In this document: piece by piece, positions 59,852 through 64,000 of the stretch
Position numbering within the stretch: the stretch's first letter is position 1
How the letters are laid out: every line of letters starts with the position of its first letter
Assembly (NCBI GenBank): GCA_027491355.1
Contig: JAIXWI010000019.1
Coordinates: forward strand, 59,261-123,260
DNA from: Bacteroidota bacterium
Lineage (GTDB): Bacteria; Bacteroidota; Bacteroidia; UKL13-3
Length of the DNA: 64,000 bases
Direction of reading: 5' to 3'
Made by a program: the position numbers and the translations under genes
The notes under the pieces: generated by a model
Database searches by the model: none
Seen by the model: only the letters and a program-made list of their open reading frames with translations
What the model was told of the DNA's origin: nothing

Positions 59852-60090
59852 GAACGGGTAAAATTAATTCTAAATTCTTGAGTTTCCTCACTAAAATTCT
59901 GTTCAATACAACTTTTGCCAAATACAATAAATAACAAATCCTGTTTTTTATTAAAGTCATCAAAGGACCTTTTAAACGTGTTCATTCGCGAACAAAATTC
60001 CCACTTTGAAACAACCTGTTATTTAAAGCAGACCAATCAAAAAAATATATTTATCTGATTTTCAGAAGTTAAAAACATACCTAAAAAATA

Positions 60091-60101
60091 GGCATCATTC
60101 T
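60091..60101 (+). promoter_or_regulatory. Shared upstream motif GGCATCATTCT, copy 1
   Basis: GGCATCATTCT lies 28 bases before the ATG at 60119, preceded by an A/T run. The identical 11-mer occurs upstream of the 61971 gene. This may be an operator or part of an alternative promoter; role not known. Confidence 0.3.
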
Positions 60102-60118
60102 AATGGGGGTATTTTACC

Positions 60119-60946
60119 ATGAAATTCATTTTGAAACAACTTCTTATTGTTTGCACATACATACTTCTGGCACCCTTTTATACGGTATGTGTGGCCCAAA
60201 TAGGTATTGGAACCAATTCGCCCAATGCCTCTGCAATACTAGATGTTAGTGCCACAAACAAGGGTTTCTTGGCCCCAAGAATGAGCTTAACACAAAGACA
60301 ATCTATTAGTTCTCCTGCTAATGGCTTAATGGTTTTTCAAGAAAATGAAAACGTAGGATTGTACATTTATTTCAATAACAAGTGGAATAAATTGGATACT
60401 GCTTTGTGGAACACATCAAGTGGAAATTTAAATTTTAGCACTGGGAATGTTGGAATTGGAACTGCTACACCCGCTGCAAAATTAGACTTAAATGGCAGTT
60501 TCAAATACACAGATGGTAACCAGGCAGCTAATAAAATTTTAACCAGTGATGCCAATGGAAACGCTAGCTGGCAATCAGCAGGTTTTTTCTTTAAAAAGAC
60601 CATATTGTTAAACTCTGTTGTACCTGGCACATATGTAGGACAAGCCAATATACCCCAGTGGAGTGCCAGCTATACAGCAAGTGGGGGAACGGTTGAAATC
60701 AGAGTCAATTTAACGGCTTTTACACTCGTTGCGGGAATGACTTCTTTTAGGTTGCTCAGAGATGGGGTTGTGATTGATAGCAATCCATTTTATTTCAATA
60801 ATGGCAACACTCACACTACAATTCCAGATTTAATTGCCATACTAGCAAATGAAACAGGAACCCATACCTATGCTGTTCAAATTGGTCCAAATATTTACGT
60901 TGATCCAAATGATAACTGCAATATGATTGTAACTGAATATAAATAA
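60119..60946 (+). CDS. Secreted protein with IGIGT repeats, unknown function
   Basis: 275 aa with a signal peptide ending YTVCVAQ. Mature start IGIGTNSPNASAILDVSATNKGFLAPRMSL is the common Bacteroidota IGIGT module, also found at the start of the adjacent protein, with an internal second copy VGIGTATPAAKLDLNGSFKY. The C-terminal half (SASYTASGGTVEIRVNLTAFTL ... THTYAVQIGP) looks like a jelly-roll-type beta domain. No T9SS tail is present. The same IGIGT modules often precede fibre-like or chaperone domains. The next gene starts right after its stop codon. Confidence 0.78.
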   Translation: MKFILKQLLIVCTYILLAPFYTVCVAQIGIGTNSPNASAILDVSATNKGFLAPRMSLTQRQSISSPANGLMVFQENENVGLYIYFNNKWNKLDTALWNTSSGNLNFSTGNVGIGTATPAAKLDLNGSFKYTDGNQAANKILTSDANGNASWQSAGFFFKKTILLNSVVPGTYVGQANIPQWSASYTASGGTVEIRVNLTAFTLVAGMTSFRLLRDGVVIDSNPFYFNNGNTHTTIPDLIAILANETGTHTYAVQIGPNIYVDPNDNCNMIVTEYK

Positions 60947-61780
60947 ATGAACCCAATAACCATGAATCATTCTTTTAAATTTTTATTTCTTTTTATCCTA
61001 ATTGCAAAGTTCAATTTTGCTCAAATTGGCATTGGAACCAACACGCCCAATAGCTCCGCAAAACTAGAAATCAGTGCAACAGATAAAGGTTTTTTAGCGC
61101 CCAGAGTGGCTTTAACTGCCACCAATTCTGGTAGCCCAATTACAAGCCCAGCAATTGGCTTGATTGTATACAATACTGCTACGGCAGGCGCTTCCCCTTA
61201 CAATGTAAGTCCGGGTTATTATTACTATGATGGAAGCATATGGGTATCTATGTCTGCAAGTACCATTATTCCTGCAGGTTCAGTACAAACTTTTGCTGGC
61301 AGTTCTGCACCACTTGGTTATTTAATATGCGATGGATCAGCTATCAGCAGAACAGTTTATGCCAATCTTTTTGCAGCAATAGGCACATTGTATGGTGCTG
61401 GTAATGGCAGCACAACCTTTAATTTACCAGATTTAAGAGGTAGAACAATTGTTGGTGTTGGACAAGGCTCAGGCTTAACAAATAGAACCATTGCAAGTAC
61501 AGGTGGTGAGGAAAGCCATACTTTAACCATTGCAGAAATGCCATCTCACTCGCACGGTGTGAATGATCCCGGCCATAACCATGGCACCTTCAATGGAAGA
61601 GATGATGGAAATAACTCAAACCAATCTGGCCAAGCGGCTCCTGGTGATGCCAATGCAAATACCAGCGGCTGGCCTACGGCTTCGGCTACTACTGGAATTT
61701 CAATTCAAAACAATGGGGGAGGAAATGCGCACAACGTCATGCAACCATTTTTGGCATTGAATTACATTATCAAATTTTAA
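60947..61780 (+). CDS. Secreted phage tail-collar domain protein
   Basis: 277 aa (or 272 from Met6, which fits the signal peptide FLFLFILIAKFNFAQ better). It begins with the same IGIGT module as its neighbour. Residues from about 105 form a tail-collar/microcystin-dependent-protein-like domain: PAGSVQTFAGSSAPLGYLICDGSAISRTVYANLFAAIGTLYGAGNGSTTFNLPDLRGRTIVGVGQ, then EMPSHSHGVNDPGHNHG and MQPFLALNYIIKF. In this phylum the module occurs in exported proteins, not only in phages. It lies immediately after the previous gene. Confidence 0.85.
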   Translation: MNPITMNHSFKFLFLFILIAKFNFAQIGIGTNTPNSSAKLEISATDKGFLAPRVALTATNSGSPITSPAIGLIVYNTATAGASPYNVSPGYYYYDGSIWVSMSASTIIPAGSVQTFAGSSAPLGYLICDGSAISRTVYANLFAAIGTLYGAGNGSTTFNLPDLRGRTIVGVGQGSGLTNRTIASTGGEESHTLTIAEMPSHSHGVNDPGHNHGTFNGRDDGNNSNQSGQAAPGDANANTSGWPTASATTGISIQNNGGGNAHNVMQPFLALNYIIKF

Positions 61781-61902
61781 GGCAAGGCTAAAATTCAATT
61801 TGACAATATTTCCCATATTGAAACAAGCAGGGAGCAACAAAAAAGACAAATAAAATATGTATACTATTGATTTTCTGAATATTAAATCATAAAAATATTT
61901 TT

Positions 61903-61913
61903 GGCATCATTCT
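61903..61913 (+). promoter_or_regulatory. Shared upstream motif GGCATCATTCT, copy 2
   Basis: The exact 11-mer seen before the 60119 gene, here 68 bases before the ATG at 61971. It is followed by TACAAAGTACATACCATAC. Role not known. Confidence 0.3.
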
Positions 61914-61970
61914 TACAAAGTACATACCATACAGCAATTTAACCCTGCTGTACAACTTAACCAGTTAACC

Positions 61971-64000
61971 ATGAAAAAGATGAATTTAAATTTAAACCTT
62001 ATTGCCAAGCTAATGCTTGAGGCAGGTTTTCATTTGATGAAGCTATTGCAGCAACAAAATCCAAGCAACAAGTTTGCTTTCATTCCGGTAAAAAATTCAA
62101 ATCAGAAAATCAGCCTAGCTGTTTTGATTGGAGTTGCCTTGTTAGGCAATTATGAATCTGCGTCTGCACAAATGAGAATCAACAGTGGCACTGAGATTTT
62201 TATTTCAAACGCTGAAAATTTGTACATCGGAGAAAACTTAACCAATTATGGCACCATCACAATGGGCACAGGTCAATTAACACTGGCTGGTAATTTAACA
62301 GACAGCGGAACCATTAACTTGAGCAATGCAACACTTGGTTTTAGCGGAACAAATGCACAGAGCATCAACTTTAATGGCAATGAAATAACAGCTAATTTAT
62401 CAGTAAACAAAGCTGCAAATACAATCAGCTTGGACAAAGGCTTGTTAATTGTCAAACAAGTTGCTACTGTAAGTGCTGGTACATTAACTACCAACGGCAA
62501 ATTAACCTTAACAAGTGATGCCTCTTCAACAGCGAGAATTGCAGCAAGCAGTGGAACCATTTCAGGTAGTGTAAACATAGAACAATTTATTCCTTCAGGA
62601 AGAAGAAGATACCGTCACATTGGCCATCCTTTTAACAGCAACCAAGCATTGTCATTGTTAACCAACGTGATTGATATAACTGGAAATACAGATGGAGTAA
62701 CTAGCAATGTAGCAAAAACTGTAGGTACAGGATTTACACCTACTGCTACCAACAACCCAAGTGCATTCTGGTTCAATACGAGCAATGCGGATAACAATTC
62801 TGTTAATGGCGGCTGGGCTGCATTTACAAGTGCAAATGGCTCTGGAACTAATGATGCTTGGGGCGTAGGAGAAGGAATTAGGGTATTATTTAGAGGAGCA
62901 AAAGGTGAAGGTTTAACCTCTGGAAATTACACACCAAGTGCGGTTACCCTTCAAATGAGTGGAAGTGTCAACCAAGGAAATACCGTATTAAATTTATCAT
63001 CTGCAGGAACGGGAGCTGGTCAAGGTTTCAATTTAATTGGTAACCCATACCCTTCTCCTGTTGACATCAGCGCAGTTATTTTTGGGTCATCATCGCAAGC
63101 TAATATCAATAAAACTGTGTATACCAGAAACCCTCAAACTGGTGCTTATGTGAGTCAACTATTGACCTCTGGTACTCCTTATGTTATTCCTGCTTACTCA
63201 GCGGTGTTCATTAAGGCCAACGCAGCTACCTCTCCTTCCATTACTTTTACTGAAGCCAGCAAAGCAAGTACTGCAAATGCTACTACCTTCAAATCTGAAC
63301 AATACATTCAAAATGGTTTGCAATTGTTTGCTACTGACAATAACCAAGTCATCGACAATATCAATTTGGCTTTCAATGCAAACAACAATGCCAATTTTGA
63401 AGATGCTTTTGATGCCATCAAACTCAATAACGATGAATTTGATTGCTACTCCATTGCCAATGACGGTCAAAAATTAGCTACTGATTTCAGACCTCTTGAC
63501 AGCCATTCAAACATTCCTATTGGTTTGCGTTTGGCATCGGGTAAAAAAGAAATTACACTTGAAGTGGCTGCAAATACTCTACTTAACAACCAAGAAGTGT
63601 ATTTATTTGACAACTTAAACCGCAGCAGCACACTCTTAACTGACGGCACAAAATATACATTCTCTGTTGATGCTAACAATGCTGCTACTACTGGTGACAA
63701 CCGCTTGTTTATTTACTTCAAAAACAATACTACTGGCCTAGAAAATAATAGCCTGCAAAACAACTTAATGCTATTCCCTAATCCTGCTAAAAACACCTTG
63801 AACATTGCAGTCATTAACCCTGCTGTGAACCTTATCAACTACGAAGTAAGAAACGAAATTGGAAAGGTAGTACTTTCTGGAAATATCAATGATTTTACGA
63901 ATGCAACAATTGCCATTGAAAACCTTAGACCTGGTTTCTATTTCTTAAACACTGCTGATCAAAATAACAACAAAGCATCTTTGAAATTTATCAAAGAATA
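61971..64000 (+). CDS. Secreted protein with long N-terminal leader and T9SS sorting domain (runs off window)
   Basis: Absent from the ORF track because the stop codon is cut: after codon 676 (KFIKE) only TA remains before the edge, so TAA or TAG is one base outside. N-terminal 46 residues (MKKMNLNLNLIAKLML...FAFIPVKNSNQK) precede a normal signal core (ISLAVLIGVALLGNYESASAQ), with cleavage near 66/67. The body is beta-rich, with T/N/S-rich adhesin-like repeats to about 200 (TLTTNGKLTLTSDASSTARI) and a region like other Bacteroidota secreted proteins (GRRRYRHIGHPF, FNLIGNPYPSPVDISAV). The C-terminal T9SS type A tail is LMLFPNPAKNTLNIAV ... IENLRPGFYFLNT from about 600. Confidence 0.88.
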   Translation, partial: MKKMNLNLNLIAKLMLEAGFHLMKLLQQQNPSNKFAFIPVKNSNQKISLAVLIGVALLGNYESASAQMRINSGTEIFISNAENLYIGENLTNYGTITMGTGQLTLAGNLTDSGTINLSNATLGFSGTNAQSINFNGNEITANLSVNKAANTISLDKGLLIVKQVATVSAGTLTTNGKLTLTSDASSTARIAASSGTISGSVNIEQFIPSGRRRYRHIGHPFNSNQALSLLTNVIDITGNTDGVTSNVAKTVGTGFTPTATNNPSAFWFNTSNADNNSVNGGWAAFTSANGSGTNDAWGVGEGIRVLFRGAKGEGLTSGNYTPSAVTLQMSGSVNQGNTVLNLSSAGTGAGQGFNLIGNPYPSPVDISAVIFGSSSQANINKTVYTRNPQTGAYVSQLLTSGTPYVIPAYSAVFIKANAATSPSITFTEASKASTANATTFKSEQYIQNGLQLFATDNNQVIDNINLAFNANNNANFEDAFDAIKLNNDEFDCYSIANDGQKLATDFRPLDSHSNIPIGLRLASGKKEITLEVAANTLLNNQEVYLFDNLNRSSTLLTDGTKYTFSVDANNAATTGDNRLFIYFKNNTTGLENNSLQNNLMLFPNPAKNTLNIAVINPAVNLINYEVRNEIGKVVLSGNINDFTNATIAIENLRPGFYFLNTADQNNNKASLKFIKE

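Follow-up and report, generated by a model that had tools for sequence, protein, structure and literature searches.

The closest described counterpart of a long region in front of a signal peptide core is the ESPR of T5SS proteins, which delays inner-membrane transit (PMC8151025). For translation starts in the Bacteroidetes, an A at position -3 was recognised as a positive start determinant in Flavobacterium johnsoniae (PMC6847099). A search in a limited set of papers yielded no account of extended signal peptides on T9SS cargos. The window analysed here, a stretch of 64,000 nucleotides from the genome of a Bacteroidota bacterium, ends in an open reading frame of 676 amino acids (ORF 61971-63998, + strand). 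Its N-terminus reads MKKMNLNLNLIAKLMLEAGFHLMKLLQQQNPSNKFAFIPVKNSNQK-ISLAVLIGVALLG-NYESASA-Q. The translated frame confirmed the statement of the first-pass annotation that 46 residues precede the hydrophobic core and the predicted ASA-Q cleavage site, both of which were recognised by inspection and a crude script. The features are listed in Table 1.

Table 1. Position and characteristics of the features at the start of ORF 61971 and in its 5' leader. Residues are counted from Met1.
Feature	Position	Strand	Characteristics
Box TTTGGCATCATTCT	61900..61913	+	71 nt before ATG; candidate promoter or regulator site
5'UTR hairpin CAGCA-AUUUAACCC-UGCUG	61932..61950	+	UUAACC in loop; identical in three species
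Met1, best-supported start	61971..61973	+	context TTAACC-ATG-AAAAAG; PWM 8.73 bits
28-nt block, codons 1-9	61971..61998	+	identical in three species
N-terminal extension (n-region), 46 residues	61971..62108	+	net charge +6 in three species
Candidate amphipathic helix, residues 10-27	61998..62051	+	muH 0.40-0.49 (three species); p 0.007 by column shuffling
20-nt block AGGTTTTCATTTGATGAAGC	62024..62043	+	ends just past Met23; identical in three species
Met23, alternative start	62037..62039	+	PWM 0.29; disfavoured by context and codon conservation
Core ISLAVLIGVALLG of the predicted signal peptide, c-region up to ASA-Q	62109..62168	+	from sequence; AQ-M junction aligned in orthologues
Mature T9SS cargo	62169..63998	+	CTD at residues 601-672 (63771-63986); PF18962, TIGR04183

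The end of the window is the end of contig C34, and its last 119 bases (63882-64000) are identical to G000:C6:1-119. This 119-bp identical overlap is an assembly junction, thus the contigs C34 and C6 adjoin. In the C6 copy of the overlap, codon 676 is the last before the frame closes, and the protein is therefore complete. The product is a T9SS type A cargo, in agreement with the earlier assignment: both C-terminal sorting domain models matched above their cut-offs (Por_Secre_tail PF18962, 2e-9, 38.1 bits, cut-off 27; TIGR04183, 7.7e-8, 32.2 bits, cut-off 23), and the genome encodes T9SS machinery, with SprA detected by TIGR04189 at 2481.6 bits. A T5SS domain was found in the product neither in Pfam nor in NCBIfam. 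The adjoining contig C6 carries a PorE-like OmpA-domain gene, with a match below NCBI's cut-off, and a gene that, judged by eye, looks like glutamine synthetase.

Six hundred sixty-seven ORFs, from 0.86 of the 2.44 Mb of the genome, were surveyed for the length of their n-regions. A signal-peptide-like N-terminus was present in 100 proteins, and the hydrophobic core began within the first 15 residues in 81 of these. Where a core started past residue 30, a nearer Met was present or the match was multi-pass/membrane or internal. A second n-region of this length without a nearer Met did not occur among the about 100 signal-peptide-like proteins surveyed. In all of the about 14 CTD proteins whose signal peptide could be recognised, the core started at residue 4-21, compared to residue 47 in ORF 61971. 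The n-region of 46 residues is thus an outlier, and its earlier description as far longer than normal was appropriate.

Two of the three other genomes of the genus that were examined, both MAGs of uncultured Bacteroidetes, contain orthologues, with 81 % (G001, L004) and 80 % (G003, L005) identity. In both the extension is in frame, with one 3-nt indel, and the AQ-M junction is in register. The first-pass annotation had proposed to compare the N-termini of homologues for the block MKKMNLNLN, which is kept in both orthologues. It had regarded homologues starting without the extension as evidence against a long n-region; such proteins were found only among distant homologues of other genera (about 30 % identity), not among the orthologues. 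Those of the distant homologues whose N-terminus can be seen, such as L009, L011, L021 and L026, carry a signal peptide of the ordinary kind, with the N-terminus MKKIIIVINLILPLISNAQ in L009. A profile search for the extension in 64 genomes of the family and 295 of the class revealed nothing convincing outside the genus. Matches in L084, L083, L105 and L087 were judged to be due to chance; in L084 the matched stretch is the end of a preceding gene, after which an ordinary signal peptide follows. Since distant homologues lack the extension and the profile had no convincing match elsewhere, the extension was added at the genus level to an otherwise ordinary signal peptide.

Conservation within the extension is uneven. 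Codons 1-9 and 19-24 are nucleotide-identical across the three species, and in codons 10-18 the variation is spread evenly over the three codon positions. The nucleotide identity is about 76-91 % in 61900-62043, 60-69 % in the intergenic DNA farther upstream and 56-67 % in codons 25-67; residues 25-47 are just 40 % identical, similar to the h-region. Variable sites were distributed over codon positions 1, 2 and 3 as 3, 3 and 4 in codons 1-24 versus 116, 58 and 331 in the mature part, the test on codons 1-24 resting on 10 variable sites. Three-way codon identity was 14 of 15, versus 224 of 471 in the mature part (binomial 2.5e-4). Thus, the lack of a codon-position signature in codons 1-24 indicates a constraint at the nucleotide rather than the peptide level, a pattern that is suggestive, not decisive. 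For this block the sequence data, with 10 variable sites, gave no sign of peptide-level selection.

A conserved 5' leader extends upstream of Met1. The exact 14-mer TTTGGCATCATTCT is present three times in the genome of 2.44 Mb, once upstream of Met1 and once 57 nt before the gene at G000:C6:77190, whose product has an LruC domain (TIGR04456, 224.6 bits). The box is conserved in the orthologues of two other species and is probably a promoter or regulator site. The leader is common to both genes (61900-61973 and L115:17133-17192, corresponding to G000:C6:77133-77192): the box is followed 35-39 nt on by the TTAACC hairpin loop and then by AACC-ATG, at which the LruC-domain gene is predicted to begin as well, and this order is kept in G001 and G003. 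The hairpin 61932-61950 folds in all three species, but 13 of 200 shuffles were equally stable, which alone is not significant. The leader of the LruC-domain gene carries the same loop core on a different stem of 8 pairs, whose outer pair differs between the three species (G-C, A-U and G-U). Box and TTAACC occurred together in 2 of 668 upstream regions versus none in 300 randomised sets, for a pattern picked after seeing both cases; matches were located at these two loci in G000, G001 and G003, and G002 had none. This leader of two secreted-protein genes, a box and a UUAACC hairpin, is a testable candidate regulatory element. A genome-wide repeated element was rejected, as TTAACC hairpins near starts were no commoner than control motifs, and the leader had only a sub-threshold chance match to an Rfam element. 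A sigma-54 promoter was also rejected: the GC at -12 is missing, and strict sigma-54 sites show no enrichment in upstream regions. RpoN is encoded at G000:C38:149609-151045 (420.9 bits), and canonical -24/-12 sites were not enriched in the surveyed part. A related box, AGGCAYNATTCTAWTGG, is located 28 nt before the ATG at 60119 of a secreted-protein gene and is kept in G003; within 60087-60121 the box reads AGGCATCATTCTAATGG here and AGGCACAATTCTATTGG in G003, without the hairpin. Two adjacent secreted proteins matching phage tail fibre families are encoded at 60119-61780. A phage tail collar domain (PF07484) is present in the second. The first has matches in two neighbouring stretches of G001, which suggests that a duplication took place in that genome.

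We give an even chance to the reading that the extension is a 5' expression leader that is translated in frame with a standard signal peptide and cleaved off together with it. Translation would start at Met1, and an ordinary Sec signal peptide of about residues 47-66 would carry an extra front of 46 residues, gained in the genus. The first 24 codons would be kept mainly as nucleotide sequence and form the downstream half of a leader with the order box, UUAACC hairpin, AACC-ATG and early codons, the upstream half of which would also serve the LruC-domain secreted-protein gene. The box may act as promoter and the early codons may support expression. Sec would tolerate the encoded n-region, weakly amphipathic and positively charged; it may have no essential role in secretion, and signal peptidase would remove it together with the signal peptide. 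The start of ORF 61971 is well conserved, though not uniquely so: the difference between early and late conservation was equally large in 13 of 60 gene pairs, thus no special element is needed, which counts against the leader. The folding of leader RNA plus early codons, no better than that of shuffles (z -0.3 to -0.9), counts against it as well, and a thermodynamically special RNA was rejected on this basis. A further point against the leader is that some selection at the peptide level is suggested by the conserved hydrophobic positions in the helix and by the conservative nature of the substitutions in residues 34-44 (KFAFIPVKNSN, KLALVPIQNSK and KLNLIPVRNSN).

A role of the peptide itself was considered. 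The extension may be a functional extended signal peptide, unrelated to the ESPR and like it in effect, with an amphipathic helix of positive charge that would delay the release from Sec or hold the cargo near the membrane, unfolded for T9SS. We regard this as unlikely, though it fares best among the alternatives. The muH of the helix in residues 10-27 is in the top 2-6 % for the same window in 667 proteins, and an AlphaFold model, of too low confidence to be used (mean pLDDT 35), places a helix at residues 8-29. Of the mostly amphipathic extension described before, only a weak signal in residues 10-27 (p 0.007) was recovered, which weakly suggests that a secretion role is possible. The charge of +6 in all three species, the in-frame conservation with a single 3-nt indel and the delay caused by the ESPR in T5SS (PMC8151025) are in favour of such an effect. 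On the other hand, codons 1-24 are without codon-position bias, residues 25-47 are no better conserved than the h-region, the extension is confined to one protein in one genus, and homologous cargos do without it. Searches of the three orthologues against Pfam, including PF13018, gave no match to the extension at E up to 10, and the assignment to the ESPR or another known family was rejected after searches in Pfam and NCBIfam. The likeness to the extended signal peptides of type V adhesins seen by the first-pass annotation was not supported, given the missing PF13018 match, the restriction to the genus and the conservation at the nucleotide level; that the sequences are unrelated, as it also stated, agrees with the missing match.

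The expression leader presupposes a start at Met1. A start-context PWM was trained on 81 signal-peptide gene starts and compared with 5102 internal ATGs. Met1 exceeded 85 % of the true starts and about 99.9 % of the internal ATGs. The orthologues scored 7.7-8.9 at Met1 and 2.7-2.9 at Met23, the latter a passable context that ranks near the 42nd percentile among true starts. Synonymous conservation after Met1 was 0.88 in codons 2-24 versus 0.61 later, and dropped in codons 25-47 to 6/10 (G003) and 3/7 (G001); genome-wide, 60 gene pairs had 0.72 in codons 2-24 versus 0.57 later. Met23 is disfavoured because the codons behind it lack the early-codon conservation expected behind a true start. Met1 is thus well supported as translation start by context and codon conservation, and also by the conserved leader that lies upstream of it and the AACC-ATG that it has in common with the LruC-domain gene. 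The alternative start at Met23 (MKLLQQQ...), noted before, is present; initiation there would put about 24 residues (Met23 to Lys46) in front of the core, with the block from the box to Met23 as untranslated leader. That Met23 is the true start appears rather improbable: the identical block ends just past its ATG-AAG, codons 10-18 vary like non-coding DNA, and its context is passable in both orthologues, but Met1, which would be in the transcript, has a far stronger context, the early-codon conservation of other starts is absent after Met23, the frame of codons 1-22 stays open in three species, and the copy of the leader at the LruC-domain gene stops at AACC-ATG instead of continuing for another 66 nt. 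As an additional start besides Met1, Met23 is possible.

A dedicated amphipathic extension, invented independently of the ESPR and comparable to it, that tunes the Sec export of a T9SS cargo and is coordinated in expression via the leader common to the LruC-domain surface protein, is quite improbable. Most doubtful is a neutral n-region, captured by chance with an upstream in-frame ATG and still retained without a role in expression or export: Sec tolerates long n-regions, distant homologues lack the extension and residues 25-47 evolve fast, but the extension persists in three species with an intergenic DNA identity of just 60-69 %, with two identical blocks in the coding part.

We consider a role of the extension in expression likelier than one in export. 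If it acts on expression, no extended n-region should be given a secretion function until its conservation has been tested at the nucleotide level. An action on export would provide T9SS cargos with a counterpart of the ESPR and would suggest that a delayed release from the inner membrane is favoured by outer-membrane secretion in general. Like proteins with an ESPR (PF13018), the product of ORF 61971 has a signal sequence of more than 50 residues, with the extension before a canonical core, and the cargo later crosses the outer membrane. In contrast to these, it is a T9SS cargo in the Bacteroidetes and not a T5SS protein, and its extension is restricted to a genus and has its strongest conservation at the nucleotide level. 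With T9SS type A cargos (TIGR04183/PF18962) it shares the CTD, the SprA translocon in the genome and, as predicted from the sequence, the Sec signal peptide, but the typical cargos of this genome have the core at residue 4-21 and not at residue 47. The start resembles the Kozak-like starts without SD of the Bacteroidetes (PMC6847099) in the A at -3 of Met1 and the A-rich early coding region, and its early codons are conserved like those of other gene starts in the genome. Unlike at such starts, conservation reaches about 70 nt into the gene, and a second gene has the upstream leader in common with it.
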